Positions 24,534-56,142 of a stretch of 64,000 nucleotides of DNA are shown one piece after another. Location: the NCBI GenBank assembly GCA_903877135.1, contig CAIRCN010000020.1, forward strand, positions 62,001 to 126,000. Direction: 5' to 3'. The notes beneath the pieces were generated by a model. It saw only the letters and a program-made list of their open reading frames with translations, did not search any database and was not told the origin of the DNA. Within the stretch, counting starts at the first letter, position 1; each line of letters opens with the position of its first letter. The stretch is from an uncultured Opitutia bacterium (GTDB taxonomy: Bacteria; Verrucomicrobiota; Verrucomicrobiia; Opitutales; Opitutaceae). The translations under genes were made by a program, and so were the position numbers.

Positions 24534-24857
24534 CTAAAGCGGAAAGCCCCCCAGACGCGACCGATGCGAGCGAGCATCCGCCAGCAGATGCGAGCGGTCG
24601 ACCGCGAGTTTCCACTCGAGTCGAAAGTAACCCTCGGCACGCGCGTTGGTGTTTGCCGAAATTACCGGCACGAACAGCGCGCACTCCTTGATCTGCCGGC
24701 GAATCTTCGCGCCCCACGCGTCGCCGCCCACGAGCTCGTTCTGGTCGAACCACACTTCAAGGCCGACGGCGCGGAGTGCGTCGCAAATTTTTAGCACCGC
24801 CTCCGCGTCCTGCGACGCGTAGCTGAGGAAGACGGCTTTATTTTCCGCGGCGCTCAT
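24534..24857 (-). CDS. truncated TIR domain protein
   Basis: The 107-residue product contains the first two thirds of a TIR_2 domain: KAVFLSYASQDAEAVLKICD, EVWFDQNELVGGDAW and ANTNARAEGYFRLEWKLAVD, including the conserved Glu of FRLEW. It is closest to the TIR of the 31425-34544 gene, but homology ends after DRSHLLAD, where an unrelated 11-residue tail runs to a stop; the last TIR strand (FLFPVVIDE), linker, membrane helix and TPRs are missing. It is probably a decayed gene, although a free mini-TIR cannot be excluded. Its ATG overlaps the preceding stop as ATGA, with AGGAGG eight bases upstream inside that gene. Confidence 0.85.
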   Translation of the reverse strand: MSAAENKAVFLSYASQDAEAVLKICDALRAVGLEVWFDQNELVGGDAWGAKIRRQIKECALFVPVISANTNARAEGYFRLEWKLAVDRSHLLADARSHRSRLGGFPL

Positions 24858-27800: not shown

Positions 27801-28174
27801 CGCGTCCACTGCACGGCGCGGAAACGGTCCGGCACGAGCGCGGCGGGCTCGCGCGTGTCGTCGATGACGACCGGCAAAATGAACGGCACGCCGCTCGCGA
27901 TGCCCATCGCGCGCTGCGCAGCAAGTTCCCACTCGATCCGGAAATAGCCTTCGTGCCTCGCCTGCGTGTTGGCCGAGATGACCGGGATGAAGAGCACGCA
28001 CTCCTTGATCTGGCGGCGGATCTTGACGTCCCACTCATCGCCGTGCTCGAGTCCGCCGTCGGCATCGAACCACACCTCGACGCCACCCGAGCGCAGCGCC
28101 TCGCAAATGCGCCGCGCCGCCTCCGCGTCTTGCGAGGCATAGGAAAGAAAAACCGCTTTACCTGAGTCGCTCAT
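24854..28174 (-). CDS. TIR-TM-TPR-TolB-like-TPR protein
   Basis: The 1106-residue protein has an N-terminal TIR_2 domain (residues 6-145; conserved Glu E81 in GYFRIEW), a linker, one membrane helix (about 174-195, YVLIAAALALIVAAVAWW), a first TPR block (about 210-620), a TolB-N/FlgO-like domain (about 625-760, DKSVAVLAFENLSDDKANEY, SDGISEELLNVLAKIPGLKV), and a second TPR block to the end. TIR_2 domains can cleave NAD+ or make nucleotide signals; TPRs bind proteins. The TIR domain differs from that of the next gene upstream (28171-31428) at only a handful of positions, whereas the first TPR blocks are not alike. It overlaps both neighbours by four bases. Confidence 0.92.
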   Translation of the reverse strand: MSDSGKAVFLSYASQDAEAARRICEALRSGGVEVWFDADGGLEHGDEWDVKIRRQIKECVLFIPVISANTQARHEGYFRIEWELAAQRAMGIASGVPFILPVVIDDTREPAALVPDRFRAVQWTRLRSGEVTPEVQQRFLKLWSHRTGVLKHEAARATGLNEPLTAREAVGKPGAKAYVLIAAALALIVAAVAWWQFSSAPPASVAEKAGVPAKTLSEAEQLVKQAREIIYDPDSARNEFGLAENLLKRATDLAPTSGEAWGASALLNHYFYSRAYDRERQRLARSLAEADKALRLGPQNTDALLALALHRQVMGETERAKDFLAQAHASDPQNYKVILAQSLQIADWVERAHFNRDAAARVSHPAELYYYAANDFDFAGRWDEAREANHRAIAAQPFWRTFVQGAVIEYTATADPAKMDAWLDRVPELKRDEPRVAFMRYLAASLRRDGAAAVRVLNALAVDYLEDNFYTGPKSYLLAHAYELAGQPALALEQWQLAERVVREKLAANSNERYMRPMLAVMLAAQHRMDEARQIVATCAADQRIIGDWVNRELLAEAYGWLGEPDRAIALLSGERRSTQVWGEVSAATLATEPRWDTLRDRPGYAQLLEQLRRAENGGAGTPSFAAAKPDDKSVAVLAFENLSDDKANEYFSDGISEELLNVLAKIPGLKVSARTSAFYFKGKEVPIPEIAQKLGVAYVVEGSVRKSGDKVRITAQLIKAADGFHVWSDTFTRDLKDIFAVQDEIAGLIAQQLQIKLGATKAARAVDPEAHRFMLEGRYFLTPRTTAGFEQAERAFTQALKIDPQFALAQAGLATTTALRGRYRLLDGVGRVEEFDQLALAQSRLALQMDPSLAEPHATIGFVYTDNRQLVEAEQEFQLAFAANPNFATAYHWHSHVLAGQGRLDLALKEIGRAEALDPVSFIILFIHGFYLHDARQYAEALTMFDRAAALRNESFLPLESERARVLFELGRKEEAMAAARKVLSDARLIASGWYAAGEALQVLRLNGAADEAARLGESLRPLMPAGSYQRGYALCALGNFAEGLPQLAHMPDIVQSRLYWHPMFDSVRDTPAFQQLMVNFHCVEEYKVARETLARMLKEQEVKK

Positions 28175-31100
28175 TTCAACTGGTCGTCAGCGAGACCCGT
28201 CTTGTGCAGGAACACCGGCCAGCGTGGGTCGTCGCGCAGGGTTTCCAGAAAGATAGCGGATCGGCTCCATGCGAGGCCCGAGTCGCGCTGGCGGTAGGCC
28301 CGCTCAAGCCACTCGAACGCGCGGTCGTTGTCCCGCCTGAAGGCGTAAACTTCTGCGATTTGATAGGCGGCGACCTCGGCATAGGCCTTGATGAGCTGGG
28401 CGAGGGTGGCGTCGGCCTCGGCTTGCTTTTTCTGACCCCACTGGGCCAGTGCCAGCGCGTAGAGCCGCGACCAATCGTTCGTCTCCTGCGTGGCCTCGGT
28501 TGCGGCTTCGTCGAATCGGCCTGCCGCCGTGAAGTTGAAGCTCACTCCCGCATGGCCCCACGGAGCTTTCGGATTCAGCTCACTGAGCCGGCGAAACTCC
28601 GCTTCCGCCTCCTTGTAACGCCCCAAGGCGCTCAATGCGAAACCATGATCTCCTCGCACGGACGGGTTCACCGGATCCAGCGCCACCGCCTGCGCCCCCA
28701 GTTCTGCCGCCCTGTCCTTTTCGCCGAAATAATAGGCGAGCCGGGCCGCACTGTCTAACACCTCCGCATCGGACGGCGCCAAGGCTTGGGCGTGCCGCAG
28801 CGACTCGCGCGCTCCCTTCCAGTCGAATTCGGAGCCGGTCTGGACCTCGACTTGCGCCAGGTAGGCGACAGCGAGGTTCGGATCCAGTTCCAGCGCCCGG
28901 TTTGCCGCTTCCCGCGCCAGCCGGTAACCGGCTTCAAAATCTGGCCGCGTATCCGCGTAACCGCCCTGCACCGAGCCGGCGCGAGACAAGGCCGCCCACG
29001 CCAGTGCAAACTGCGGATCGAGTTGCACCGCGCGCTGCAGCAAACCGACCGCCTTGGTTGCGCTCTCATACGAAAATTGGTTCAGGAAAAATTTCCCCTG
29101 CAGGTAAAGCTGGTGCGCCTCGGGATTGGCCATCCGGTCCGCCCGCGTATCGGCCCCCAGTTTTAGTTCCAGGTTTTGCGCGATCAGCCCCGCGATCTCA
29201 TCCTGCACGGCGAAGATATCCTTCAGCTCGCGGGTGAAGGTGTCGCTCCACACATGGAAACCATCGGCGGCCTTGATGAGCTGGGCGGTGATACGGACCT
29301 TGTCACCAGCCTTGCGGACGCTGCCCTCGACGACGTAAGCGACGCCGAGTTGCTTCGCGATCTCGGGCACCGGCACCTCCTTGCCCTTGAAATAAAACGC
29401 CGAGGTGCGCGCTGAAACTTTTAGGCCGGGAATTTTCGCCAGCACGTTGAGCAACTCCTCGCTGATGCCGTCGGAGAAATATTCGTTGCCCTTGTCGTCG
29501 CTCAGATTTGCGAACGCCAGCACGGCGACGGATTTCGCGTCCGGCGCACCGGCCACCGCCGCGCTCGATTTGGCTGGGTCGCTGAGCTGCGCGACTATTT
29601 CCGGGTCGCTCCACCAATCCTTCACGCGTGGATCGATTTGGAGCAGGTTGCGAAAATAGCGCCGCCAGCCCGCGGTCGTCGCGGCCTTGCGGAGATAATT
29701 CAGCGCCGACTCCTTGTCGCCCAGAACGAGACTCGCGGCGAGCGGGCCATACCAATACTCGGCGGGATAAAGCGGATCGAAATCCCACGCGCTCGTGGCC
29801 TCGATCACGCCGGGCAGCGCCGCCCGCGCCTCCGCCAGCCGGCCGAGCCGCAACAGCGTCCACACCTCGAGCTGGCGGTAGCGATTCTTGCCCGGATCCT
29901 TCGCGCGCGCCTGCGTCACCTCCGCGTGCGCCGCCTCGAATTCGCCGCGCGCCTGCTCGGATTTTCCCTGCAACACCAGCAGGTCACCCGCGATCAGCGC
30001 CTTGGGGGTCTCGCCATAGTTGCGCAACCACACGCCGGACAGTTGCTGCACCGTGGCGATCGCGCGCTCCGTGTCGCCGCTGGCGAGCGCGTAGATGAAT
30101 GAAGGCATCGCCTCTCGCGCGTTGTCGCGAACCTGCGGCGGCATCTTCACGAGCCAGTCCTTCATCATCGGCAAATCGGCGTGGGCGAACGCGGCAAACG
30201 CCGCGAGGTCGGCGTGCAGGCCACCATAGAGCAGCGAAGTCGGCGGCGTGAAGGCGAGCGTGTCGCGAAATGCTTTTTCCGCGCCATCGAAATCTTCCAG
30301 GTAGAGCTGCACCAGGCCGTAGTCGTAGTGCACCAGCGCGTTGTCCGGAAAAAGCTCGAGCGCATGCTGGGCATTGCGCCGCGCCTCGTCGCGCTTTCTC
30401 TGAAACACCAGAGTGAAGCTGAGCATCCGGTAGTAGCGCGGATCGCGCGGGTTGATCGCGATGGCCTGCCGTAGGAGTTGTTCCCCGCGCGCGGGATCGC
30501 TGCCGAGGTAGCCGTTGGAATAAAACACACCCTGGGCCGCCAGAGCATCGGTATTCTGCGGCGCGAGCCTCACTGCGCGCTCGGTGTATTGACGCGCGAG
30601 CGCACGCCGTTCCTCGGACATGTCGAACCCGCGGACCATGAAGAGATCGTTGAGCCACGCGTAGAGAATGACCGCGTCGGTATCGGACGGGCGCTTCGCG
30701 AGGACCGTCTTCAAGATGTCGTCGGCGAGGGCAAAACCCTCCGCCGTCGAATCGGGCGAATTGAAATCGAACAGTGCCGCGGCTCGCGCTAGTTCCGGAT
30801 CGCGCGGGGCCGAAGTCGCGCCCGGCCAGAATTTCCAAAGGGCCGCAGCGGCGATCAAAGCCACCGCCAACGTCGCAAAAATGCGGCGGCCTGCCTTTGA
30901 AATGGCACGGGTATCCTGCCCGTGAAGTCCGGACGCGGGCAGGATGCCCGTGCCACGTTCCGCCGACTCGTGCTTTAAAACGCCCGTGCGATGCGACCAG
31001 AGTTTCAGGAAACGCTGCTGCACCTCGGGAGGAACTTCGCCGTGGCGCAGCCTTGTCCACTGCACCGCCCGGAAACGGTCCGGCACGAGCGCGGCGGGCT

Positions 31101-31428
31101 CGCGCGTGTCGTCGATGACGACCGGCAAAATGAACGGCACGCCGCTCGCTATGCCCATCGCGCGCTGCGCAGCAAGTTCCCACTCGATCCGGAAATAGCC
31201 TTCGTGCCTCGCCTGCGTGCTGGCCGAGATGACGGGGATAAAGAGCACGCACTCCTTGATCTGGCGGCGGATTTTCGTGTCCCACTCGTCGCCGTGTTCG
31301 AGCCCGCCGTCGGCGTCAAACCACACCTCGACCCCGCCGCTACGCAGCGCCTCGCAAATGCGCCGCGCCGCTTCCGCGTCTTGTGACGCGTAGCTGAGGA
31401 AGACGGCCTTGTTGACGGCTTCGCTCAT
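28171..31428 (-). CDS. TIR-TM-TPR-TolB-like-TPR protein with repeat-encoded linker
   Basis: The 1085-residue protein has a TIR_2 domain (7-146; Glu E82 in GYFRIEW), a linker that contains an in-frame inverted repeat (residues about 158-174, TGILPASGLHGQDTR), a membrane helix (about 183-200), a TPR block (about 210-610), a TolB-N/FlgO-like domain (about 625-760; SDGISEELLNVLAKIPGLKV) and further TPRs with clear motifs such as ALELDPNLAVAYLAQ. ATG 31428 is chosen because it overlaps the upstream stop as ATGA and has AAGGAG upstream of it; an in-frame GTG 60 bases earlier lies inside the previous gene. Architecture is shared only with the next gene (24854-28174). Confidence 0.92.
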   Translation of the reverse strand: MSEAVNKAVFLSYASQDAEAARRICEALRSGGVEVWFDADGGLEHGDEWDTKIRRQIKECVLFIPVISASTQARHEGYFRIEWELAAQRAMGIASGVPFILPVVIDDTREPAALVPDRFRAVQWTRLRHGEVPPEVQQRFLKLWSHRTGVLKHESAERGTGILPASGLHGQDTRAISKAGRRIFATLAVALIAAAALWKFWPGATSAPRDPELARAAALFDFNSPDSTAEGFALADDILKTVLAKRPSDTDAVILYAWLNDLFMVRGFDMSEERRALARQYTERAVRLAPQNTDALAAQGVFYSNGYLGSDPARGEQLLRQAIAINPRDPRYYRMLSFTLVFQRKRDEARRNAQHALELFPDNALVHYDYGLVQLYLEDFDGAEKAFRDTLAFTPPTSLLYGGLHADLAAFAAFAHADLPMMKDWLVKMPPQVRDNAREAMPSFIYALASGDTERAIATVQQLSGVWLRNYGETPKALIAGDLLVLQGKSEQARGEFEAAHAEVTQARAKDPGKNRYRQLEVWTLLRLGRLAEARAALPGVIEATSAWDFDPLYPAEYWYGPLAASLVLGDKESALNYLRKAATTAGWRRYFRNLLQIDPRVKDWWSDPEIVAQLSDPAKSSAAVAGAPDAKSVAVLAFANLSDDKGNEYFSDGISEELLNVLAKIPGLKVSARTSAFYFKGKEVPVPEIAKQLGVAYVVEGSVRKAGDKVRITAQLIKAADGFHVWSDTFTRELKDIFAVQDEIAGLIAQNLELKLGADTRADRMANPEAHQLYLQGKFFLNQFSYESATKAVGLLQRAVQLDPQFALAWAALSRAGSVQGGYADTRPDFEAGYRLAREAANRALELDPNLAVAYLAQVEVQTGSEFDWKGARESLRHAQALAPSDAEVLDSAARLAYYFGEKDRAAELGAQAVALDPVNPSVRGDHGFALSALGRYKEAEAEFRRLSELNPKAPWGHAGVSFNFTAAGRFDEAATEATQETNDWSRLYALALAQWGQKKQAEADATLAQLIKAYAEVAAYQIAEVYAFRRDNDRAFEWLERAYRQRDSGLAWSRSAIFLETLRDDPRWPVFLHKTGLADDQLK
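30903..30955. repeat. inverted repeat inserted in frame in a TIR gene
   Basis: Arms 30903-30922 and 30936-30955 pair over 20 bases with a single mismatch around a 13-base loop (arm TGGCACGGGTATCCTGCCCG). It falls in the linker between TIR and membrane helix of the 28171-31428 gene and keeps the reading frame. The form is that of a REP/MITE-like interspersed repeat. Confidence 0.8.
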
Positions 31429-34400: not shown

Positions 34401-34544
34401 GTCCCACGCATCGCCGCCGACGAGTTCGTTCTTGTCGAACCACACTTCGACGCCCGACGCCCGCAGCGCCTCCGCGATGCGCTCCACCGCCGGCGCGTCC
34501 TGTGACGCGTAGCTGAGGAATACTGCTTTGGTGGGCTCTCTCAT
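31425..34544 (-). CDS. TIR-TM-TPR protein without TolB-like domain
   Basis: The 1039-residue protein has a TIR_2 domain (6-145; Glu E80 in GYFRLEW; EVWFDKNELVGGDAWDQ), a Ser/Ala-rich linker, a membrane helix (about 174-192, WIRVVSIIGGLAIGLVYAF), and then about 830 residues of TPR-like helices in two halves (examples RALELEQTDGEIWAISSR and RALALDPNEPEALLALGHLL). Unlike most of its neighbours it shows no TolB-N/FlgO-like block; TPRs begin soon after the helix. The FRPM tail after the helix resembles the LRP tail of the other paralogues. The conserved TIR Glu is kept, so catalysis is possible. It overlaps both neighbours by four bases. Confidence 0.92.
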   Translation of the reverse strand: MREPTKAVFLSYASQDAPAVERIAEALRASGVEVWFDKNELVGGDAWDQKIRRQIKECALFVPVISANTQARAEGYFRLEWKLAVDRSHLMADDAPFLFPVVIDETSDAAARVPDKFRDVQWTRLNVKDTPETLAKRVTKLLVGGPAPAVETGRARPAESSEGVAASGKSGPHWIRVVSIIGGLAIGLVYAFRPMWTPPRRAETKSPAAVATAPSPVPPAAPLSDARQLAYKARALVDKIDSTPDDFAAAEGLLKRALELEQTDGEIWAISSRINTAYLSRAFDRSPSRREAGRTQAERAIKLAPDSVEALLALGRSIGRSDFTRTEALLQRALVLAPEDGRVLLALGSNSVTQQKLDVALGYFQRMANVPEWRPLGLYNEFLVFLYQRRFAEAEPAIRDAVADVPSTNFVVGQAMLEVIWHGRADEAARLLAAAPPAVRTEPRTALVTALVAQMNRKPDEALRALDRLPADYINDAWFTGPKGLLAGLAHAQANRPEAARLAWEAGLVVVRRRLQDDPNDPEQHLRLGELLAWSGQTEAAMREAKIVEELAGSRMRVWTASLVRIYAALGRADLAVPLLKQELEVAYATRWPLTVALLRLDPLWDKIRDDPRFQALCVEPAEKIEAKLLSEGAQLAARALALIVKVGFTRDDLAPAEDLARRATEKDPDSAAAWGVRAGIQSAWLFRNWDMSEKRKQDTQAFANRALALDPNEPEALLALGHLLRTQGAFDQAEAHLRRATTNNPNHIRLARALGYTLSGHGRVEEARVVLLAAAKRAPRDPLLRYELAMTYTTYGNGGAKLENLDRAIEQLDIAVAIQPFSSALILKAGLIGGWRSDLPAMRATLDQLEKLPLAERSEDRSVFVAMWAAMLEHRPDRIEAAAALTARNYFDDSVMPLRPKSWSLALAHRLAGKDNLARNDWQAAETVLRQRLQDDPANEKYQVELAITLAWLDQREEAARIVAPIEPVWKEEFRYWRPALLARYYAALGDTAKAMPYLAQEIDQNLFTTRKVIPLDPWWDKLRGQAEFEALLKEPKK

Positions 34545-36412
34545 GCCAGTTGCTCGTCAGTGAGTTTAATTTTGCGCAGGAACGGCAGCCAGCGCGGGTC
34601 CGAATGCAGATTTCTCATGAGCGGATCGCATCTCATCAATGCCGTCCCAGAATCCCGCACCCGGTAACTCTCCTCCAGCCACGCATAGGCCTGGTCAATG
34701 TCGCCGCGGAAAGCGTGAACCTGGGCCACCTGATAGGCTGCGTGGGTTCCATCCTTCGCCTTCAATTCCTCCAGCGCCGCCTCCGATTCCTCCAGCCTTC
34801 CCTGAGCAAATCGCGCGCAGGCCAACGCAGTCTGTCTGGCCCAGCCGGCCGGCACTTCCTCGGCGGCCTTGGCGGCCTCGTCGGTGCGGCCTTGGAACAA
34901 AAGGGCCAGAAAGAGGAAGAGCCGGCTCCGCAGGCCCGCGGGATTCAGCGAGATCATGCGGTCCGACTGTTTCTCCATTTCCTCAAAACGGCCCGCCAGA
35001 CCCAGACTTCGGGCCAGGGCATAATTCGAAAAATAGTTGAGCGGGTCGAGTTCCACAGCTTTGCCCGCCAAGCGAATAGCCTCGTCGCACCTACCGGTGA
35101 TTCCTGCCAGATGGGCCACCATGCTCATGGTCTCCACGTCTCCAGGGGCGAGTTCCAACGCCCGCGCAAGCAAAGCCGACGCCTGCTTCCAGTCCCAACC
35201 ATAAAGAAGCTCGATGAAAGCTCGGGCAAAATGACCTTTGGCCAGATCCGGATCCAAGGCAATCGCCCGCTGGGCCGCCTCGCGGCCCAGACGGCTGCCC
35301 GACTCGATCCCATAAACGCCGGAGCCCGCCGACATACCGTAGCCCAGCGCCAGCCACGCCCAAGTGAGCGCTGATTCCGGATCGATTTCCAACGACTGCC
35401 GGTAGCACTGGATGGCCCGTTCGTATTCGGATGGCACCTCGCGGTAGAAAATCGTCCGCCCTTCCAGAAACAGACGGTAAGCGGCCGGGTTGACCTCGCG
35501 GGCCACACGGACCGTCGCGCCCAGCGTAAGCGAGAGGCTTTTCGCGATCAGCCCAGCGATCTCGTCCTGCACGGCAAAGATGTCCTTCAAGTCGCGCGTA
35601 AACGTGTCGGACCACACGTGGAAGCCATCCGCCGCCTTGATGAGCTGCGCGGTGATGCGGACGCGGTCGCCCGCTTTGCGCACGCTGCCCTCGACGACGT
35701 AAGCCACGCCGAGCTGCCGCGCGATGTCGGGAATAGGTGTGTTTCGGCCCTTGAAGTGAAACGCCGAGGTGCGCGCGGAAACCTTCAGGCCCGGCACGCG
35801 GACAAGCACGTTGATCAACTCCTCGCTGATCCCATCCGAAAAAAATTCGTTCTCCGCGTCGTTGCTCAGATTCGCGAACGCGAGCACGGCAACGGAGTTT
35901 CCCGCCACCGCCGGCACAGCGTCGGTCAGCCGCGGCGGACTCGGTGGCGGCGCAGCCGAACGTGACTGGGCCGTGCCTACGCCCGCCAACAACCGCCGCA
36001 CATGCTCCGCCACGGCCGGTGGTGTTTCCCCGCCAGGCAGGCGCGTCCATTGCACCGCAAGAAACGAATCCGGCACATCGGCGCCAGCATCCGGCGTCTG
36101 ATCCACGCAAACCGGCAGCACGAAGGTCTTGTTCCGGCCCATCAAATGCGTGCGCTGATCAGCTAGCCGCCATTCGAGGCGGAAATAACCCTCGGGGCGC
36201 GACTGTGTGCTGGCCGATATGATCGGCACGAACAGCGCGCATGCCTTGACCTGCTGACGTATTTTTTGGTCCCAAGCGTCGCCCCCACGGAGTTCTCTTT
36301 GGTCAAACCACACCTCAATGCCGGAACTACGCAGCACCTCCGCGATCCGTCGCGCAGCGTCCGTGTCCTCACGGGCATAGCTCAGAAAAACGGCTTTGGT
36401 CGCGTCGCTCAT
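34541..36412 (-). CDS. TIR-TolB-like-TPR protein lacking a membrane helix
   Basis: The 623-residue protein has a TIR_2 domain (6-145; E80 in GYFRLEW), a short proline-rich linker (RSAAPPPSPPRLTDAVPAV) and then directly a TolB-N/FlgO-like domain (about 171-300, NSVAVLAFANLSNDAENEF, SDGISEELINVLVRVPGLKV), followed by TPRs (about 310-600, for example RALELAPGDVETMSMVAHLA). No hydrophobic helix separates TIR and TolB-like parts, so it is the only TolB-containing member predicted to be wholly cytoplasmic. It overlaps the next gene by four bases and lies three bases after the previous stop. Confidence 0.92.
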   Translation of the reverse strand: MSDATKAVFLSYAREDTDAARRIAEVLRSSGIEVWFDQRELRGGDAWDQKIRQQVKACALFVPIISASTQSRPEGYFRLEWRLADQRTHLMGRNKTFVLPVCVDQTPDAGADVPDSFLAVQWTRLPGGETPPAVAEHVRRLLAGVGTAQSRSAAPPPSPPRLTDAVPAVAGNSVAVLAFANLSNDAENEFFSDGISEELINVLVRVPGLKVSARTSAFHFKGRNTPIPDIARQLGVAYVVEGSVRKAGDRVRITAQLIKAADGFHVWSDTFTRDLKDIFAVQDEIAGLIAKSLSLTLGATVRVAREVNPAAYRLFLEGRTIFYREVPSEYERAIQCYRQSLEIDPESALTWAWLALGYGMSAGSGVYGIESGSRLGREAAQRAIALDPDLAKGHFARAFIELLYGWDWKQASALLARALELAPGDVETMSMVAHLAGITGRCDEAIRLAGKAVELDPLNYFSNYALARSLGLAGRFEEMEKQSDRMISLNPAGLRSRLFLFLALLFQGRTDEAAKAAEEVPAGWARQTALACARFAQGRLEESEAALEELKAKDGTHAAYQVAQVHAFRGDIDQAYAWLEESYRVRDSGTALMRCDPLMRNLHSDPRWLPFLRKIKLTDEQLA

Positions 36413-36415
36413 TGG

Positions 36416-38737: not shown

Positions 38738-38738
38738 G

Positions 38739-45414: not shown

Positions 45415-45426
45415 GAATGGCCTGGC

Positions 45427-48400
45427 TTAAGCGCCTGATTTGGCCCGGGCGTCGGACACCCATTGGATGATTTCGCGATTTTGGAGCAGTTGTTGGGCTT
45501 CAAGCGACATTCCCCCGAGCACACCCGCGGCCTGATCGAGCAGTGCACGGCGTTGTTCCTGGCCGTTCACATCGCCGGGTTGCGCCAGCGCCTGCTGATA
45601 GAGTGCGCGGGCAAAGTCCTGCCGGAACTTGGTGTCGGTCGCGCCCTGGACCAGTTGCTGCCGATAATAGTCCACTGATTCACTAAGCAGGCCGAGTACC
45701 TCGTCGCGGCGGCCCGAGCCGAGCAGGGCCTGACCGAGCCGCACTTTTGTGCGCGCCTGGCTTTCCGCTCTCGTCTGCTGGTCGAGGCGGTGGCCATAGG
45801 CGGGATTTTGGAGGAGTTCGCGGGACACTGTAGCTGCCTCCTCCAACTGGCCGACACGCAGGGCGGATTCCGTTTTCCACACGCGGCTTTGGCGCAGAGC
45901 GTTGGTGTGGAAGTCCACGCTGCCCTCGTGCTGCAATTTCATGCCGGCGAGCCGGTCGCTGATCACTACCGCGCGCCGATGGATGGTGGCGTAGTCTCCC
46001 TGCGCGGCGAGAAGGTCGAACTCGAGCATTTCCAGGCTGGCGCTGCTGATTGCGGTCAGCTCCGGGTCGATATTGCGGTCCTTGACAAATTGCGCGTAGA
46101 CGCGCTTCGCCTCCGCAAGACCGGCACGCGCTTCCGCCAAGTTGCCGCGCTGCGACTCGTAGGCGACGATGGTGGCCCAAGTCCAAAAGACGCTCACGTT
46201 CATGCCGGTCTTGTTGCGCGGGTCTTTCTCGAGCGCGACCCCATCGCAGGCTTTGCGGATGGCGTCGGCCACGCGACCTTCTTCATAATAGGTTTCCGCC
46301 ACATCGCGGACGCTCACGCCATAGAACTGCCAGCCACTGCTGTCGGCAGGATTGAAGCGCGTGTAGTAGCGACAGGCCTCCTCCGATTTGCCGTAGTGCA
46401 ATTCGGCATCTTTCAAATCGTGATGGCTGCGGGCTACGATGGCCTGCATGTTTTGCGAGAAGAAACGATTCCGCATGGCGCGCAGGTCGCCGGGACGCTG
46501 CTCAAGCACTTTCTCGGCGATGTCGCTGACGATGCTTGCGAGCCGCTCGGCCTCGTCGATCCGGCCGAGCACCTGGGCCATTCGCGACTGGGAGTCGGTC
46601 ACGTCGCCATAAATCGAGGCGGCCGTCAGATCGGTGAGCGTAACCGCGCCCATGTCGACGAGGATTTTGCGCGACTCCTCGCAGTTGTCGTAGCCGTCGG
46701 CGGGGTTTGGTTGGGCGTGCCCGAGGTATTGGAGCATGTCGGCAAAGGCGAGCTTCGTGCTGCGGGGCGCCCGCCCCGAGGCCACAATGGGGCGCAGCAA
46801 GTCAACTGCCTTGATCAACTCCGCCCGCGTGTCGCCCAGCGCCGCAGTCGAGGCAGTGGAAAAATATGCCAAGGCCAGCGCCGCCCGGGTCTCATCGGTG
46901 TCATGGCCCGAGGTGCGCAGATCCTCGAAAATCTTCCGGGCCTGCTGCGCCACTGCAGCGGCGGCAGCGTCCTGGCCAGCATCGAAAAGCGAGCTGGCTT
47001 TGCGCACGAGCGCAAGGCCGCGATAGAGGCGCGTCTGTGGGGACATCAACGCGGCGGGCAGGCCGTCGTAGTAAGCCACGGCCTTGTCGGCCAGCTGGCC
47101 GACAATCTCGCTGCGGCCCGTGGGCCTGAGCTCCTCGTAGAAATCGTCGAGCAAAAAGCCAACGAGCTTTTCAGCCTCGGCGCGGGCGTGCTCGGCCAGT
47201 GCGCGGGTCTGAGCAGCCTCGACCTCGGCGGCGCGGGCGCGGCGCAGGTTGATCCAGCCAAACACCGCGCTCCCTGCCGCCAGCAGCATGAGCACGCTGG
47301 CCACGGCGGCGACAAGCCGCGCGCGCACGAGCGCCCGGTGGGTCGCAATCTCTCGCTCCTTCTGGGCGGCAAGCTGGCGCTTCGATTCCTCCAACGCTTC
47401 GCGCTCGTGGCGCACGCCGCGACTGGCACCGATGACGCTGCACAAGACGTCGTGCGTGATCTCGACCCGTCGCATGTCGAGTCGATCTTCCACGCGCAAT
47501 AAGCGGCGGTCCACAAGGGCCGCAAGCGCGTCAGGCTTGGCGCCGGCAGCGGCAAACCCTTTCCGAACGCGTTCCTCTGCGACGCTCTCGCGGAAACCGG
47601 AGTCAGTCAGCATCTCGTCCTCGATAAACATCCGCACGCCGTCGGGCTGATCCGCAAGGACGCGTTCGTAGAACTCCGACAGGATGGTGTCGCGTGAGCC
47701 GGCGAGCAGGTCGGCAGAGATTTCCGCGTGGCCCCGGGCGAGTCGGGTGTTGTTCAGCTCGCGGCAGATGAGGCTGAGCAGCGAGGGCTCGACCTCGGCG
47801 TGGGATAGATCGGCTCCACCGGCAACGAAGCGCACAATGGCAGCGGCCACCGTCTCTGTGACCAGGTGCGGCGCGGGCCGACACACGGCAGCGATCGCCT
47901 GCGTGCCAGTCATCCGGGCGAGGCGCATGCGGTTCTGCGTGACGGACGGCATTTGCCCCTTCAGCCCCTCAAGGTGCGCGAGGTAGTCTTCTCTCAGCGA
48001 GATGAGAATGCGGTAGTCGGCGCGGGCAAAATCGAACTTGGCGGCGTCGGCCTCGTCGCGGTCAATGCGCGTTTCTAGCGCGGCCGGCGGGCGATTTTCT
48101 ACGAGGTCGGCGAGATCGGCGAGGAATTCCTGCGCGCGTTTCCGGCCGGCGTCGTCCGTCTGGGCCAGTGTGAAGATTTCCTCGAACTGGTCGAAGATGA
48201 GGATGGGAATGAGCGTGCGCCCCTCGGCGTCCTTGAGCACGTCCTCGCGGTGGTGGAGGAATTCCCAGAGCGTCTCGCCGGAGACTGCCGATCCGCTCTG
48301 CGTCCACGTGCCGGCGGCCTCGGTGGCGCGAAAGACAGCGCGCTTGATCTGCTCGGCGGGCGGCGGCGAGTGCGGGTCGTAGTCGAGCCGCACATAGACG

Positions 48401-48642
48401 GGACAGAAACCCTCGGGCCGCAGGCGCGGCACGAGGCCCGCCTGGAGAATGGAGGTTTTGCCGAGACCAGACTGACCAAAGAGGATCGTGAGGAGCTTGC
48501 GCTGCACGCGGCGACCGAGTTCGGCGGCCTCTTCCTCGCGGCCGTGGAAATAGCCACGGGTTTCCTCGGTGAAGGAAACGAGTCCGAGCCAGGGATGCTG
48601 CGCATCAACGGTCGCAATGGGGGCGGGGGCGGATGGTTTCAT
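45427..48642 (-). CDS. nSTAND-type NTPase with membrane helix and TPR region
   Basis: The 1071-residue protein starts with a short block (PWLGLVSFTEETRGYFHGRE) typical of nSTAND1 proteins, then a P-loop NTPase: Walker A GQSGLGKTS (56-64) and Walker B LIPILIFDQFEEIF (144-157), a hallmark DQFEE motif. A helical/winged-helix-like region (about 250-400), a coiled coil (about 411-440) and a membrane helix (about 443-463) follow. The C-terminal 570 residues are TPR-like helices. STAND ATPases are ligand-triggered switches that oligomerise, often for defence. It has no TIR of its own, so it may act with the TIR proteins of the same operon. Its ATG overlaps the SIR2-TIR gene stop as ATGA. Confidence 0.9.
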   Translation of the reverse strand: MKPSAPAPIATVDAQHPWLGLVSFTEETRGYFHGREEEAAELGRRVQRKLLTILFGQSGLGKTSILQAGLVPRLRPEGFCPVYVRLDYDPHSPPPAEQIKRAVFRATEAAGTWTQSGSAVSGETLWEFLHHREDVLKDAEGRTLIPILIFDQFEEIFTLAQTDDAGRKRAQEFLADLADLVENRPPAALETRIDRDEADAAKFDFARADYRILISLREDYLAHLEGLKGQMPSVTQNRMRLARMTGTQAIAAVCRPAPHLVTETVAAAIVRFVAGGADLSHAEVEPSLLSLICRELNNTRLARGHAEISADLLAGSRDTILSEFYERVLADQPDGVRMFIEDEMLTDSGFRESVAEERVRKGFAAAGAKPDALAALVDRRLLRVEDRLDMRRVEITHDVLCSVIGASRGVRHEREALEESKRQLAAQKEREIATHRALVRARLVAAVASVLMLLAAGSAVFGWINLRRARAAEVEAAQTRALAEHARAEAEKLVGFLLDDFYEELRPTGRSEIVGQLADKAVAYYDGLPAALMSPQTRLYRGLALVRKASSLFDAGQDAAAAAVAQQARKIFEDLRTSGHDTDETRAALALAYFSTASTAALGDTRAELIKAVDLLRPIVASGRAPRSTKLAFADMLQYLGHAQPNPADGYDNCEESRKILVDMGAVTLTDLTAASIYGDVTDSQSRMAQVLGRIDEAERLASIVSDIAEKVLEQRPGDLRAMRNRFFSQNMQAIVARSHHDLKDAELHYGKSEEACRYYTRFNPADSSGWQFYGVSVRDVAETYYEEGRVADAIRKACDGVALEKDPRNKTGMNVSVFWTWATIVAYESQRGNLAEARAGLAEAKRVYAQFVKDRNIDPELTAISSASLEMLEFDLLAAQGDYATIHRRAVVISDRLAGMKLQHEGSVDFHTNALRQSRVWKTESALRVGQLEEAATVSRELLQNPAYGHRLDQQTRAESQARTKVRLGQALLGSGRRDEVLGLLSESVDYYRQQLVQGATDTKFRQDFARALYQQALAQPGDVNGQEQRRALLDQAAGVLGGMSLEAQQLLQNREIIQWVSDARAKSGA

Positions 48643-50033
48643 GTGCGGCGGGCGTTAAAAAATTCCTGCAGACGGCGGGTGAACTCAGGCGGTGGTTCGC
48701 CACCGGGCAGCCGTGCAAAGTGCACAGCCTTGAATTTCTCCGGCACGATGGCATCGGCCTCGGTCGTGCCATCGATGCAGACCGGCAAAATGAACACCGC
48801 GCCGTCCGCCATACCGCGCGTGCGGTCAACAGCGTAGCTCCATTCGCGGCGGAAATACCCCTCGTGCCGCCGCTGCGTGGTGGCGGAAACCACGGGCAAA
48901 AAAAACGAGCAGCGGGCGATGTTACCTCGGATTTTTCGATCGTAGTCGTCGCCGCTTTCCAGCCGGTCCATATCGAACCACGTGGTGATGCCCGCCGCGT
49001 CGAGACCGGCCCGGAGCCGCTCAACTGCCGGCAGATCTTCGCGCGCGTAGCTGATGAAAACGGCGTTTTCGGGCATTTCACGGGCCGGCGGCAGAAACCG
49101 CATAGGGGAGCCTGAGCCGCCCGCGGTGGTCGCGGCGACACCGCGTCGAGCCATCCAGCGGCGGTGCAACTCCGCCACGAATTCCACGGCGCCGGCAAAC
49201 ATCCGCGTGCGCACGCTGACCTGCTGCAGGAACGATACGAGGCGCACGTCAGTGAGGCTGTGGCTGTCCGCTAGAATCTCACCAACATCGCGCGGGTCGG
49301 AGAGGCGCCGGCGTTTGGTCATGCGCAGAAAGAGCCGCGCGAGCCAGTTGGAGAAATCGCTGCCGATGACGAGCAGGTGGTTGTGCTCGAGGGCATGGAA
49401 GAGTTTTTCAGGCGTGAGGTGCTCGCTCTGCAGCGCGCAGACGAACTCCAGCATGTCTTCGTCGGAGATGACGTAGGTCGGTGACGCGGAGAGGCGGCCG
49501 AGCAGGTGGTAGACGACGGGCCGCTGGAGGTCGTCGCGTTCGACCGGCAGGTCAGCCACGCGGTTGGGCGCATAGGCGATGACCTCGGTGTTGGCCGCGC
49601 CGCCGAAGCGGACTTGGTTGATGGCCTGCTCCAGCAACGGATCGAACGTCATTGTGACGTAGAGGTTGAAGTCGGTGATTTCCGCGAGCTGCCGGAGCGG
49701 CAGTGGCGGCTGGAAGGCCGCCTCGCGCATGATGGTGCGGAGCCGGGTGTAGGCCTCCTCGCGGCGCCCGTGTGCGGTCAGGTAACTGCACACAACATCG
49801 TTCAGCGTGATTGGCTGAGGCAGCGGCGCAGGATCGACACCCAACCGGGCGGCGAGTTTCTCCGCCAGCCATTCCAAGAGGAGGCGCGGGCCGGACTCTG
49901 TCTCCACCTTGAGTAGTTCGGGGCCCACGATGGGGATAACGCGCTTTTCCTCGATGTAGTTGAGCAGGTCTTCCCACACGTCGTCGTTGAACGCTGTGGC
50001 GGAGAAGGAAGTGGCGGCGATTTCGGTGTTCAT
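48639..50033 (-). CDS. SIR2-like/TIR fusion protein
   Basis: The 464-residue protein has a SIR2-like domain (about 30-290): a diverged nucleotide loop IPIVGPELL, YVTMTFDPLLEQA (about 125-137), VVYHLLGRL with H176, and HNHLLVIGSDFSNW. After a linker comes a TIR_2 domain (about 322-460; ISYARED, E397 in GYFRREW). SIR2-like and TIR domains are both NAD+-consuming modules in phage defence. By eye the SIR2 TNxD motif is changed (Asn replaced by Thr129), so the SIR2 part may bind rather than cleave NAD+. It has no membrane helix, and is the only protein here with TIR at the C-terminus. Its start is 27 bases after the previous stop. Confidence 0.88.
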   Translation of the reverse strand: MNTEIAATSFSATAFNDDVWEDLLNYIEEKRVIPIVGPELLKVETESGPRLLLEWLAEKLAARLGVDPAPLPQPITLNDVVCSYLTAHGRREEAYTRLRTIMREAAFQPPLPLRQLAEITDFNLYVTMTFDPLLEQAINQVRFGGAANTEVIAYAPNRVADLPVERDDLQRPVVYHLLGRLSASPTYVISDEDMLEFVCALQSEHLTPEKLFHALEHNHLLVIGSDFSNWLARLFLRMTKRRRLSDPRDVGEILADSHSLTDVRLVSFLQQVSVRTRMFAGAVEFVAELHRRWMARRGVAATTAGGSGSPMRFLPPAREMPENAVFISYAREDLPAVERLRAGLDAAGITTWFDMDRLESGDDYDRKIRGNIARCSFFLPVVSATTQRRHEGYFRREWSYAVDRTRGMADGAVFILPVCIDGTTEADAIVPEKFKAVHFARLPGGEPPPEFTRRLQEFFNARRT

Positions 50034-50060
50034 TGGTGAGGGTAGTTGAAAGATAAAATA

Positions 50061-51200
50061 TTAGGGTGCGGCGGCGTTGACCCGCAGAGCGAGGGCCCGC
50101 TCGACGCTCTCACGCAGTTCCTGCGCCGTGAGCGGATTGCGGAAGGTCGCCCGGTCGAGCGGCACCCGCCAGGTTTCGATTTTTCCGGCGAGGGATGGGA
50201 AACGGGTCGCCGCCTCACCGCGCCACTTCGCCGCATCGGCGTCGTTTTCGAACGAATGCCGCGAATAGACAATGAACCTCACCTGCGGGTCCAACGTCGC
50301 CAAGTAGCCGAGACAGGCGACGAGCTTGTTGTCCGCGATCGGGTAGAGTTCCTCCGCCCGGTTCGACGGAAAAGTGTAGAAGCACGAACGGTGCAGCACG
50401 ATCAGCGCGGGGTGGACCTTGGCGATCTCGCTCTCGCGGTGCCAGACGGAGCTGGTGTTTTCCTTGATGATCGAGATGGGCAGATCGTGCAGCGCGTCGG
50501 TGATGTCGTCGGCATTGGTGCCCCCGCTCTTGAGCGTCGCCGGGTCGTAAACACGGTCAACGTAAGGCGAGTCCATCAGCACTACCACCGGCGGGCCGGA
50601 ATGGGCGGTCGATCCGGCGCGCGGCGCAAGCTTCCACCACATGCCCGCAATGGCGAGAGCGAGCAGGGCCACCGTGAGCACCGTTTTCCAAACGGAACTC
50701 GGCCGCGCAAGTGGTGCGTGACTCGATCCTCCCGCCGCCGGACTGGCCGCCAACGCGGGCTTGCGCTGCTGCCCGAGCAGCCGCTGCACCTGTTCGACAA
50801 ACTGTGGCGAGGGCACGCCATTCGGCAGCCGGGTCCAGTGGGCGCGAATAAACGCGTCCGGCACCGATGCGCCTGCTTCCGCCGTGTCGTCGATGACGAC
50901 TGGCACGATGAATGGCACGCTCTTCGCGATGTGCTGGGTGCGCTCTTCCGCCAGCGTCCATTCCAAGCGGAAATAACCTTCGCCGCGCGCTTGAGTGTGC
51001 ACCGAAATGATCGGGACGAACAGCGCGCAATCCTTGATTTGACGGCGGATGTTCTGGTCCCATGCGTCGCCACCGCGCAATTCGCTTTGGTCGAGCCACG
51101 CCTCGACCCCAAATGCTCGCAGCGCGTCGGCGATGCGGCGCGCGGCGTCAGTGTCCTCGCGTGCGTAGCTCAGAAAAACGGCTTTGGTGGACTCGCTCAT
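50061..51200 (-). CDS. TIR-TM protein with unrecognised C-terminal domain
   Basis: The 379-residue protein is the shortest intact TIR member. It has a TIR_2 domain (6-145; E80 in GYFRLEW; EAWLDQSE replaces the usual EVWFDQ), a membrane helix (about 171-189, TVLTVALLALAIAGMWW), and a C-terminal domain of about 175 residues with no TolB-like or TPR pattern. That domain alternates strands and helices (PPVVVLMDSPYVDRVYD, PALIVLHRSCFYTF, VRFIVYSRHSFEND), as in an alpha/beta fold; I do not recognise it. It might be a ligand-binding or second enzymatic module. It overlaps the previous stop by four bases. Confidence 0.88.
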   Translation of the reverse strand: MSESTKAVFLSYAREDTDAARRIADALRAFGVEAWLDQSELRGGDAWDQNIRRQIKDCALFVPIISVHTQARGEGYFRLEWTLAEERTQHIAKSVPFIVPVVIDDTAEAGASVPDAFIRAHWTRLPNGVPSPQFVEQVQRLLGQQRKPALAASPAAGGSSHAPLARPSSVWKTVLTVALLALAIAGMWWKLAPRAGSTAHSGPPVVVLMDSPYVDRVYDPATLKSGGTNADDITDALHDLPISIIKENTSSVWHRESEIAKVHPALIVLHRSCFYTFPSNRAEELYPIADNKLVACLGYLATLDPQVRFIVYSRHSFENDADAAKWRGEAATRFPSLAGKIETWRVPLDRATFRNPLTAQELRESVERALALRVNAAAP

Positions 51201-53554: not shown

Positions 53555-53557
53555 CGT

Positions 53558-55849
53558 TCAGTAAAGTGGCGCGTTGTTCTTCGGGTCGTTGATGAGCGCC
53601 TGAAAGCGCGGGTCGGCGCGCAGCGGGGCATAGAGCCGCTCTGTCTGGAGGTAGTGGACGTTCACGTAGCTGGGGCGGTGGAGCAGGCGTGTGTATTCGG
53701 CGAGCGCGCGCTCCTTGTCGCCGTCCAACAAATAATCATTGGCCAGAAACTCGCTGAAGCGCGCACTATCGAAGGCATCAAGCGACTCCGGCATGAGCTC
53801 TGTGCATTTTCGGGCGTGCGCGAGGGCTGCCTCCTTTTGACCGAGGATGAGCTCTATTAGAGCCAACCCCGCCCAGAGATTATTGTTGGCGGGTTGAAGC
53901 TGCAACGTGGCCTGAACCTCGGCTGGGAAACCGCCGAGCCGCGCCTGTGCGGCAGCGACATCGCCATGCACAAAGTAAGCGAGGGCGCTGAACACAGCTT
54001 GTTCCGAACGAGGCCTGCCGTCGGTGTCGAAGTAGGGTTGCAACTGGTCGAGCCGCTTATATTCGATCATGTCGTCCATGCGATTGGCGCGACCCTTCCG
54101 CCAGGCAATGACCCGAGGTGTGTTTTGCTGTTCGGGTGAGAGCTGCGCGAACCAATCCTCGCTTTCCTTCCAAGAGCCGGTAGCGTCGAAGAGGAGCAGG
54201 TGAAGCCTGAACAGGTCGGGCAAATCGTCGGGCAGCAGGGCCACCAGCCGGCGCTGGACAGCGATGGCTTCATCCCACCGCCGGACTAATTCCAAGGACG
54301 AGACGAGGTTGCGGGCATAATTGAAATTAGCCTGCTCGAGCTGGTAAGCTTTCCAAAGATTCGAAAGCGATTCAGTCCAGCGGCCCTGCCGGCGCTGGAT
54401 GAGGCCGAGAGAACTGAAAGCAGTCGGATCGTTGGGCTTCATCCGCGCGAGTTTTTTATACTGCTCGGTGGCGCGCGCATAATCGCGGTAGGCGTAGTAG
54501 GCGTAGGTGCCGAGTGCCTGGATGACGTCGGGCGACTCCGGCGCGAGACGGACAGCCTGAGCAATGGCGGCGTCGGCCTGGGCGAGGCGGGCCGGTGTGT
54601 GGTCGTAGTTCCAAAAGACGTTGAGCGCGTGGGTGACAGCCAACTCGCCCCACGCCGCGGCGAACTTGGGATCCTGTTGCACGGCCAGTTGGTATAGCGC
54701 CTCCTGCTTATCGAGACCGGTCTTGGTGTTGCGGTCGCGGTTGCGTGAAGCGCGGCCCTGCAGGTAGGAATCGTAGGAGACGGGGTTTTCCGTAGGACGG
54801 CGCTCAAGGAGTTTCTGGGTCTGCGGCGTGAGCGCCGCCTCGAGCGCGCCGGCAATCTCGGTGGCGAGCGCGGCCTGAATCGCGAACACATCGGTGAGAT
54901 CGCGGTCGTAGCTTTTCGCCCAGACATGCTCGTCGGTGCGGGCGTTGATGAGCTGGCCGGTGACGCGGACTTTGTTGCCGGAGCGGCGCACGCTGCCCTC
55001 GAGAATGTAGGCAACGCCGAGCTCCTCGCCAATTTGGCGGAGCGATTTCTTCGAGTCGCGATACTGCACGACCGTCGTGCGCGAGACGACTTTCAGGTCG
55101 CGAATGAGCGCGAGGTTCGTGAGCAAATCCTCGTGCACGCCGTCAGCGAAGAAGCCCGTGTCCTTCTCATCGCTCATGTTGGCGAAGGGAAGGACGGCGA
55201 TCGATTTGTCGCTGATTTTTGCCGCAACCGGCGCTGAGACAGGCTCGGCGGCCAAAGGTTTTTCCTTCGCCGCCGGGCGCAACGCGAAAAACGCGGCTGC
55301 GCCAATCGCGATCACGGCGACCATGGCGATGGCAAACAGGGGTGTCTTGCTGGGTATTGCTGGCGCCGGTGATGCAGTCGGCGAGGCGGCGACTTCAGCC
55401 GTGCGGCGGGGCTCGAGCAGGCGCTTGGTCTGCGTGACAAACTCGGGGGTGGGCATGCCGCCGGCCAATCGCGTCCACTGCACGCGCATGAACTGCTCGG
55501 GCACAAGTGCGGCTGACTCCGCGGTGGCATCAATCACCACCGGCACGATGAACGGCACGCCGTCCGCCATATCGTGGGTGCGTTCGACGGCGATTTTCCA
55601 TTCACGGCGGAAGTAACCTTCGGTGCGCTGCTGCGTGCGCGCCGAGATCACCGGCATGAAGAGAGCACAGGCGCGGATTTGCCCGCGAATCTTGGCGTCC
55701 CAAGTGTCGCCGCCGCGCAGTTCGTTCTGGTCGAACCACACCTCAATACCAAAGCCCCGCAGCGCGTCAGCGATACGGCGCGCCGCTTCGGTATCTTCGC
55801 GGGCATAGCTGAGAAAAATACCGCCAAGAGTCAGGAGATGTTCCGGCAT
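53558..55849 (-). CDS. TIR-TM-TolB-like-TPR protein, first gene of the operon
   Basis: The 763-residue protein has a TIR_2 domain (about 10-145; E83 in GYFRREW), a linker, a membrane helix (about 171-190, LFAIAMVAVIAIGAAAFFAL) ending in RPAAKE, a TolB-N/FlgO-like domain of the HEDLLTNL subtype (about 213-340; SDKSIAVLPFANMSDEKDTG) and TPRs (about 350-740). The tail FQALINDPKNNAPLY matches the 36416 and 38739 proteins. Its N-terminus (MPEHLLTLGGIFLSYARED) differs from the MSExTKAVFLSY start of the others. It is preceded by an AT-rich gap with a candidate promoter and a terminator, which makes it the operon head. No Shine-Dalgarno is evident. Confidence 0.92.
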   Translation of the reverse strand: MPEHLLTLGGIFLSYAREDTEAARRIADALRGFGIEVWFDQNELRGGDTWDAKIRGQIRACALFMPVISARTQQRTEGYFRREWKIAVERTHDMADGVPFIVPVVIDATAESAALVPEQFMRVQWTRLAGGMPTPEFVTQTKRLLEPRRTAEVAASPTASPAPAIPSKTPLFAIAMVAVIAIGAAAFFALRPAAKEKPLAAEPVSAPVAAKISDKSIAVLPFANMSDEKDTGFFADGVHEDLLTNLALIRDLKVVSRTTVVQYRDSKKSLRQIGEELGVAYILEGSVRRSGNKVRVTGQLINARTDEHVWAKSYDRDLTDVFAIQAALATEIAGALEAALTPQTQKLLERRPTENPVSYDSYLQGRASRNRDRNTKTGLDKQEALYQLAVQQDPKFAAAWGELAVTHALNVFWNYDHTPARLAQADAAIAQAVRLAPESPDVIQALGTYAYYAYRDYARATEQYKKLARMKPNDPTAFSSLGLIQRRQGRWTESLSNLWKAYQLEQANFNYARNLVSSLELVRRWDEAIAVQRRLVALLPDDLPDLFRLHLLLFDATGSWKESEDWFAQLSPEQQNTPRVIAWRKGRANRMDDMIEYKRLDQLQPYFDTDGRPRSEQAVFSALAYFVHGDVAAAQARLGGFPAEVQATLQLQPANNNLWAGLALIELILGQKEAALAHARKCTELMPESLDAFDSARFSEFLANDYLLDGDKERALAEYTRLLHRPSYVNVHYLQTERLYAPLRADPRFQALINDPKNNAPLY

Positions 55850-55867
55850 GTAAGCATTTCTGTTGGT

Positions 55868-55902
55868 AGTTATTAATGTAATGACTCAAGCACATAAATC
55901 AA
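55868..55902 (-). promoter_or_regulatory. candidate promoter of the TIR operon
   Basis: On the minus strand TTGATT (55897-55902) and TACATT (55875-55880) are 16 bases apart, in a locally AT-rich patch just upstream of the first TIR gene. A start near 55868 would leave a leader of about 19 bases. Matches to consensus are partial and no operator or second signal is seen, so this is only a candidate. Confidence 0.35.
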
Positions 55903-56110: not shown

Positions 56111-56142
56111 TGTTGTTTTCTGGTTATACCCGCGGCATTGGC

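Follow-up and report, generated by a model that had tools for sequence, protein, structure and literature searches.

What would a bacterium do with a dozen TIR proteins encoded in a single row? The question is raised by a 64,000-nucleotide stretch of DNA (hereafter the window) from an uncultured Opitutia bacterium of the family Opitutaceae (assembly GCA_903877135.1, contig CAIRCN010000020.1, positions 62,001 to 126,000), on whose minus strand 14 genes follow one another from position 55849 down to 24534. This cluster, here called the array, is real and unusual. Judged from its sequence, chances are about even that it constitutes an ordered repertoire of transmembrane TIR receptors of immune type, for which we infer a role in defence.

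Open reading frames (ORFs), spacing and family assignments were recomputed, which reproduced the inventory of an earlier note made from the letters of the window alone: 12 intact TIR_2 genes, one truncated TIR gene and one nSTAND gene in one direction, with no foreign gene between them and gaps of at most 27 bases. With ATG starts taken at 31428 and 24857, eight of the 13 junctions are 4-bp overlaps and the other five are gaps of 1, 3, 3, 12 and 27 bp. Pfam assigns TIR_2 (PF13676) to 13 genes and nSTAND1 (PF20703) to the remaining one. All 13 TIRs score above the curated PF13676 cut-off (28 bits), and 13 of the 15 places matched by this family in the 4.23-Mb draft genome lie inside the 31-kb array. 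The earlier note also called the array an operon. Co-directional genes, operon-like spacing and an upstream hairpin agree with this, as does a scan, of the sigma-70 type only, in which internal promoter-like or terminator-like sites were no more frequent than in shuffled sequence; the array is probably one operon.

No longer array of this kind occurs in the 100 family genomes that were compared; 57 of these contain TIR_2, and every genome with at least eight TIR_2 matches was listed in full. The next longest run has nine TIRs across 25 kb, interrupted by a single gap of about 2 kb (G065:C110:47568-72616), and the third has seven, the SIR2-TIR protein counted, with an nSTAND gene and a TIR fragment among them (G092:C11); several of the compared genomes are fragmented drafts, in which runs may be cut. 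One genome, G043, holds 50 TIR_2 matches. The remark in the earlier note that no run of this size is known thus holds for the genomes searched, whereas the same receptors form shorter arrays in several Opitutaceae genera, so that the array marks the long end of a range.

The Glu of the GYFRxEW motif is kept in 13 of 13 window TIRs, the truncated one included, as had been claimed, and aligns with a Glu of PDB entries 3h16 and 7uwg. Together with the Trp that follows, it is invariant in all 203 TIR domains collected from the window and the fetched loci, a set picked by high score to a home-made TIR profile and thereby biased to close relatives. By their sequences, the window TIRs are PF13676 domains with an NADase-type active site, and cleavage of NAD+ is predicted for them.

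Six of the intact proteins have the order TIR, transmembrane segment (TM), TolB-like domain and TPR repeats, and two have TPR repeats on both sides of the TolB-like domain. The genes at 31425 and 50061 encode variants of this plan, that at 34541 a protein without TM, and that at 48639 a SIR2-TIR protein. By hydropathy, a TM is present in 10 of the 12 intact TIR proteins, the exceptions being 34541-36412 and 48639-50033, and the term 'TIR receptors' used in the earlier note suits those ten and neither exception. TolB-like domains are matched ten times in this genome, always in TIR proteins and nine times in the array. Hydropathy also indicates a TM in 95 of 110 TIR proteins with 330 or more residues, taken from the window and the fetched loci without the SIR2-TIR proteins. 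Lys and Arg are more numerous on the TIR side in 51 of the 95, fewer in 24 and tied in 20, a bias that favours a cytosolic TIR and a sensor outside.

The 763-residue product of the first gene (53558-55849) was modelled by AlphaFold with 41 relatives (mean pLDDT 90.6). A helix at residues 173-188 stands between the TIR and the TolB-like domain. For the predicted ectodomain (about 207-537), four entries of the CadC periplasmic domain rank first (Z 18.0-18.8 over 303-308 residues), the best being 3ly8 (Z 18.8, 305 residues, root-mean-square deviation (rmsd) 4.0); TPR superhelices, SPARTA TIRs, TolB (Z ~15) and plant TIRs follow. The plain Foldseek E-value places the TPR superhelix of O-GlcNAc transferase above CadC, and since the superhelix of a TPR region resembles many repeat proteins, specific information comes only from the matches to CadC and TolB. 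The TIR of the model matches SPARTA TIR-APAZ (Z 15.8) and the TIRs of RUN1 and SARM1. According to Pfam, an N-terminal winged-helix DNA-binding domain is absent, with TIR_2 in its place. The modelled protein would thus be a one-component receptor in which a TIR stands in place of the DNA-binding domain.

Effector and sensor parts have diverged to different extents. The window paralogues share on average 63% identity in TIR (55 pairs), 57% in TolB-like domains (36) and 29% in TPR (45). When window proteins are paired with relatives from elsewhere (20 pairs), the means are 81% in TIR, 77% in TolB and 48% in TPR, with linkers averaging 37%; these pairs were selected at TIR identity of at least 72% and coverage of 85%, which favours TIR over TPR, and involve only eight window genes. 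The nSTAND proteins follow a similar pattern, with 73% identity in the NTPase and 33% in the C-terminal part (n=66 full-length proteins retrieved by their NTPase domain), and 88% and 46%, respectively, in the closest group (n=11). At the level of sequence, the effector parts are conserved and most sensor parts diverge.

The nSTAND gene, which the earlier note listed as an addition to the TIR genes, does encode a STAND NTPase, as its PF20703 match and Walker A and B motifs indicate. It is however no add-on, and the gene next to it (48639-50033), counted there as one more TIR gene, is in fact a SIR2_2-TIR fusion (PF13289); the two are the halves of a cassette. A scan of GTDB genomes yielded 186 relatives, of which the best 80 were kept with flanks of up to 10 kb, often cut by contig ends. 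The carriers of these 80 belong to Opitutaceae, other Verrucomicrobiota, and Gamma- and Betaproteobacteria, and include Lysobacter telluris, Lysobacter profundi and Rhodanobacter sp. B05. An nSTAND gene adjoins SIR2-TIR in 77 of the 80 loci. In two of the other three (L068, L084) the contig stops within about 100 bp of the gene, and in the third (L141) no nSTAND gene occurs in the 1.9 kb covered downstream. Sixteen of the 80 have further TIR genes within the flanks that were fetched. SIR2-TIR plus nSTAND1 is thus a conserved cassette, found also without arrays. The SIR2 domain is matched in 50 of 252 family genomes, a few of the matches being weak. Repeats in the C-terminal part of nSTAND are detected in the window protein only as TPR_12 (0.0026, below cut-off), and in the homologue from G037 as TPR_2 (1.6e-7, above cut-off).

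Some cassette loci have features of their own. In a Burkholderiales draft (L141:1925-4267), SIR2-TIR is followed by a gene for a Crp-type regulator, named by eye. Two SIR2-TIR/nSTAND cassettes stand in tandem at L052:8034-18552 (G043:C29), and the draft G482 has ten matches to the cassette SIR2 domain, some of them partial, possibly a separate expansion of the cassette.

The SIR2 part of the fusion has lost its active site. TTNXD and HG are the SIR2 active-site motifs, and GAGXS also belongs to the motif definition, in the paper on PaAvs5 (PMC12931631). The window protein has GPEL, TMTFD and LG where GAGXS, TTNXD and HG are expected, and Thr or Ser takes the place of the Asn in TTNXD, and Leu, Phe or Met that of the His in HG, in 85 of 85 sequences. 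The columns were set by profile alignment (probability 96.6) with 22 SIR2_2 proteins of the phylum bearing T(T/S/Q)N(Y/F/W)D. These were selected for having a TTN-type motif, so that 22 of 30 loci were used and 8 set aside. Residues were mapped through this alignment because a search of the SIR2 profile against PDB sequences gave no SIR2 match at E values up to 10. The closest folds to a model of the fusion are ThsA (Z 20.2 over both domains, rmsd 15), KomC (19.8), DSR2 (about 18) and Avs5 (16.9), and the nearest solved TIR is that of SPARTA TIR-APAZ (Z ~15.6). The pseudo-SIR2 part is probably a non-enzymatic assembly domain.

In three cases a class III cyclase replaces the TIR output or is joined to it. 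At L055:5816-7267 (G047), the cassette SIR2 is joined to such a cyclase (PF00211, 4e-9) in the place of TIR, with the same nSTAND1 adjoining. The exchange is a single case, since it concerns one of 66 SIR2 frames in 64 family loci, the window's included, and its source is a fragmented draft. Fifty-nine of these frames have a TIR and six have neither domain, the latter being pieces of frames broken by stops or shifts (L247, L259 twice, L272, L283, L284); the count leaves out six repeat regions (L285-L290) and most partial matches. In the genome of the window, on contig C24, one protein (L065:8126-11188) combines TIR, class III cyclase (PF00211, 2.5e-8), TM, TPR and TolB-like parts, and a related protein of G023 (L061) has TIR and a cyclase recognized by a home-made profile. 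The three cases are observations and not a census. Matches of the cyclases to PycC are weak (1.5e-6 for L055, 0.0037 for L065), and no array gene has a cyclase match.

How the array came to hold so many receptors was addressed with a tree of 94 TIR domains (145 alignment columns; 29 of 91 inner branches open). The 15 TIRs of the genome itself need 14 label changes, compared with 14.3 after shuffling, and because they scatter over the tree in this way, many old lineages appear to be represented in the array, and their relatives occur in the arrays of other genera. The labels of all genomes together cluster somewhat (64 changes versus 71.3 shuffled), with local clusters in G043 and G054. Gene order is shared as well: across 25 arrays chosen among the fetched loci (two with only one mapped gene), read on the majority strand and mapped by best window match, 89 gene pairs are concordant with the window and 30 discordant, a value reached in 3 of 20,000 shuffles (p 1.5e-4), part of the signal being due to short proteins at the start of the arrays and long ones at the end. 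One neighbour pair of array TIRs is 97% identical and another 82%. These data suggest that a recent tandem burst is mostly not the origin of the array, though the two neighbour pairs are recent; as the main story, such a burst was discarded on the basis of the tree and the shared order.

The site has a history of its own. In a congener (G021), the same flanking genes enclose a single TIR gene, the orthologue of 50061 (61% identity over its full length), so that two genomes of one genus have 1 and 13 TIRs at the same place. The C-terminal ~170 residues of 50061-51200, without Pfam match, are conserved in that single gene. As the flanks are collinear with the congener, the site is chromosomal. 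Cassette-bearing arrays of G092 and G037 lie 2.6 and 9.5 kb from matches to the right-hand flank, while that of G015 is not beside it.

At the distal end, two TIR remnants (24534-24857 and 24407-24484) close the array, a sign of loss or recombination there; the TTG start listed for a permease ORF at 24517 precedes the second remnant and is probably spurious. On the other side, upstream of the array terminator and on the same strand, lies a gene of the pRiA4b ORF-3 family (PF07929) at 56584-57207.

Features of the array and its borders, with window coordinates and the matches on which the assignments rest
Feature	Coordinates	Strand	Evidence
TIR-TM-TolB-like-TPR receptor, 763 aa, first array gene	53558..55849	-	TIR_2 3e-20; AlphaFold pLDDT 90.6, helix 173-188; ectodomain top match CadC periplasmic domain, Z 18.8
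TIR-TM-TolB-like-TPR receptor, 785 aa	51197..53554	-	TIR_2 5.3e-21; TM from 173
TIR-TM protein, 379 aa, C-terminal domain of ~170 aa without Pfam match	50061..51200	-	TIR_2 1.8e-19 as sole Pfam match; 61% identity over length to the single TIR gene of congener G021, the only type at that site there
Fusion of pseudo-SIR2 and TIR, 464 aa; neither TM nor TPR match; cassette gene 1	48639..50033	-	SIR2_2 (PF13289) 5.7e-9; TIR_2 8.6e-18; Asn and His positions lost in 85/85; fold match ThsA, KomC, DSR2, Avs5
nSTAND1 NTPase with TM and C-terminal sensor (weak TPR), 1071 aa; cassette gene 2, 4-bp overlap with gene 1	45427..48642	-	PF20703 6.9e-31; TPR_12 0.0026; Walker A GQSGLGKT, Walker B ILIFDQFEE; TM from 443
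TIR-TM-TolB-like-TPR receptor, 682 aa	43366..45414	-	TIR_2 2.3e-21; FlgO 0.0013 (below cut-off)
TIR-TM-TolB-like-TPR receptor, 772 aa	41051..43369	-	TIR_2 2.4e-19; TolB-like match
TIR-TM-TolB-like-TPR receptor, 771 aa	38739..41054	-	TIR_2 1.5e-20; TolB-like match
TIR-TM-TolB-like-TPR receptor, 773 aa	36416..38737	-	TIR_2 9.1e-21; TolB-like match
TIR-TolB-like-TPR protein without TM, 623 aa	34541..36412	-	TIR_2 2.1e-21; no TM by hydropathy
TIR-TM-TPR protein without TolB-like match, 1039 aa	31425..34544	-	TIR_2 3.1e-21
TIR-TM-TPR-TolB-like-TPR receptor	28171..31428	-	TIR_2 2.4e-18; start = ATG at 31428 (GTG start would give 31488); TIR 97% identical to next gene
TIR-TM-TPR-TolB-like-TPR receptor, 1106 aa	24854..28174	-	TIR_2 9.9e-19
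Truncated TIR gene, ~105 aa, Glu kept	24534..24857	-	TIR_2 2.9e-17 over profile 1-77
Second TIR 5' remnant, ~25 codons, distal end	24407..24484	-	Matched at the DNA level by the beginnings of G021 and G092 TIR genes
Terminator-like hairpin, 13-bp stem, between array and upstream gene	56082..56111	.	Scan: 3 terminator-like sites found, 1.9 expected
Presumed leader/promoter region of array	55850..56081	-	No sigma-70-like match there

Taken as a repertoire of immune-type receptors, the array might work as follows. Ten of its proteins would be single-pass membrane proteins with the TIR enzyme domain on the cytosolic side and a sensor outside the cytosol, mostly CadC-like, i.e., a TolB-like domain with a TPR superhelix; this would be the topology of a Toll-like receptor built from unrelated sensor parts in the opposite N-to-C order. 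Binding of a ligand to the variable TPR superhelix could bring the TIRs together, and the assembled TIRs could then cleave NAD+ or produce a nucleotide signal, leading to arrest or death of the cell or to the warning of a partner, by which the array may act against phages. The cassette would form a second arm, in which nSTAND1 would sense by its own variable C-terminal part, oligomerize with ATP and gather SIR2-TIR, whose pseudo-SIR2 part would probably serve as a scaffold that activates its TIR.

Several observations weigh against this reading. The Lys and Arg bias is modest, and the TM is absent in five of five members of the 34541 class (window, L050, L057, L081, L143), so that a sensor of the same type would there be cytosolic. 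In three pairs of that class, moreover, the TPR parts (79, 58 and 78% identity) are about as conserved as the TIRs (79, 79 and 75%), the choice of the 20 pairs described above leans towards the observed contrast, and relaxed constraint alone would also yield divergent TPRs. The neighbouring genes are of housekeeping or transport type (ketoacyl synthase, amino-acid permease, TonB receptor, lysine-2,3-aminomutase type, carbamoyl-phosphate synthase) and form no defence island. PADLOC and NCBIfam found no system, only partial matches to TIR, TPR or cyclase. CadC senses pH and lysine or cadaverine, and an ectodomain of its type could serve ordinary sensing.

This last point leads to the main rival, which is that CadC-type one-component receptors with TIR or class III cyclase output carry out ordinary envelope or nutrient signalling through a regulatory nucleotide signal. 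It would account for CadC as the top ectodomain match, for the cyclase in TIR's place in G047 and beside TIR in one polypeptide in L065 and G023, and for the housekeeping surroundings. Such signalling fits poorly, in contrast, with the patchy presence of the receptors (57 of 100 family genomes; 1 versus 13 TIRs at one site), with the divergence of the sensors, and with SIR2-fold matches to antiphage proteins, STAND proteins with SIR2-fold partners being usual in defence; we regard it as unlikely. That predicted sensors on the outside are variable, and that nSTAND is probably membrane-bound, would suit the sensing of cell contact better than the cytosolic parts of a phage. The receptors might then recognize kin or neighbours as in allorecognition or heteroincompatibility, by reading molecules of adjacent cells or injected toxins and imposing TIR-dependent arrest. 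An allorecognition-like role for variable STAND sensors is raised in PMC10907252, and yet the proposal seems to us quite improbable.

Two further explanations would deny the array a special function or its TIRs an enzymatic one. The recent neighbour pairs, the distal remnants, the G043 and G054 clusters and the slight overall clustering of genome labels are what a local bloom of paralogues, amplified in tandem without special function, would leave behind; against such a bloom, already disfavoured, stand the scattering of the genome's own 15 TIRs, their relatives in other genera and the shared order, which make it very improbable. If TIR and pseudo-SIR2 parts were scaffolds only, with the output passing through another partner, the lost active-site residues of SIR2 would be expected, whereas an invariant Glu and Trp in 203 of 203 TIRs, next to linkers that average 37% identity, would not, and we give this idea hardly any credence.

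Returning to the immune-type repertoire, a broader version of it can be formulated, namely that Opitutaceae own an inherited, ordered set of single-pass receptors of Toll-like topology, with variable CadC-type ectodomains and NAD-processing TIRs, in one transcript with a SIR2(pseudo)-TIR/nSTAND1 module; most genes would be old, separate specificities that come and go at one fixed site, and the outputs, TIR and class III cyclase, would be exchangeable or joint. As a whole, this version is tentative and somewhat doubtful. Sensors outside and a TIR inside, as predicted, would allow surface pattern recognition by bacterial TIR receptors, and its ligands, to be asked about directly. The split between constant effector and variable sensor, together with shared gene order, would allow the array to serve as a natural library of specificities for ligands. 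The pseudo-SIR2/nSTAND1 cassette can be tested apart from the array and would show if a dead sirtuin fold can scaffold TIR assembly.

Among known systems, the regulators of the CadC/ToxR type (PDB 3ly7-3lya) are alike in the N-terminal cytosolic output, the single TM, which CadC has, and the periplasmic ectodomain, as predicted here from one model (Z 18.8); the array proteins differ in having a TIR rather than a winged helix, a longer TPR superhelix, and a grouping in arrays with as many as 12 intact TIR genes. Toll-like receptors have an ectodomain of leucine-rich repeats (LRRs), one TM and a cytosolic TIR. The predicted likeness resides in a repeat ectodomain outside, one TM and a TIR in the cytosol, whereas the domain order is reversed, with the TIR at the N terminus, the sensor is made of TolB-like and TPR parts rather than LRRs, and the TIR is of the bacterial TIR_2 family; homology of the sensors is not claimed. 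To our knowledge, most tested bacterial TIR defence proteins sense inside the cell.

Thoeris consists of ThsA, with a SLOG domain and a SIR2 that has the catalytic Asn and His, and of the TIR protein ThsB. A TIR and a SIR2 fold are in common, ThsA being the top fold match of the SIR2-TIR model; in contrast, there is here one fused protein in which the SIR2 active site is lost (Asn and His in 85 of 85), a TIR follows SIR2 in place of SLOG, and the partner is an nSTAND. The TIR-APAZ proteins of SPARTA are the nearest solved TIRs by structure (Z ~15.8 and 15.6), and the array has no Argonaute gene. Pycsar pairs the cyclase PycC with a separate effector gated by cyclic nucleotides, such as PycTIR. 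It has in common a cyclase of class III type paired with a TIR, and the matches to PycC are weak; the cyclase is here fused or exchanged, the sensor is CadC-like or SIR2/nSTAND, and Pfam detects no cyclic-nucleotide-binding domain in L065 or L055.

AVAST type 5 has SIR2, nSTAND3 and repeats in one protein with an active SIR2 (PMC12931631). It shares with the cassette a SIR2 fold and a STAND NTPase with a variable sensor, putatively made of repeats in the cassette, and differs from it in that these are here divided between two proteins, with nSTAND1, a TM and a pseudo-SIR2 joined to TIR. NTP-dependent conflict systems of multicellular bacteria likewise combine STAND NTPases, repeats and exchangeable effectors (PMC7159879, PMC8195603), the effectors being TIR in the passages of the former, and TIR, SIR2 and cyclase in those of the latter. 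SIR2, however, does not occur in PMC7159879, TolB occurs only in its references, and the passages of the two papers present no TIR/TolB-like arrays and no SIR2-TIR/nSTAND1 pair. Among the hits of searches in the open literature of PubMed Central, which does not extend to subscription papers or preprints, no TIR/CadC-like array and no SIR2-TIR/nSTAND1 pair was noticed. The families of the parts are known; their combination appears to be new.

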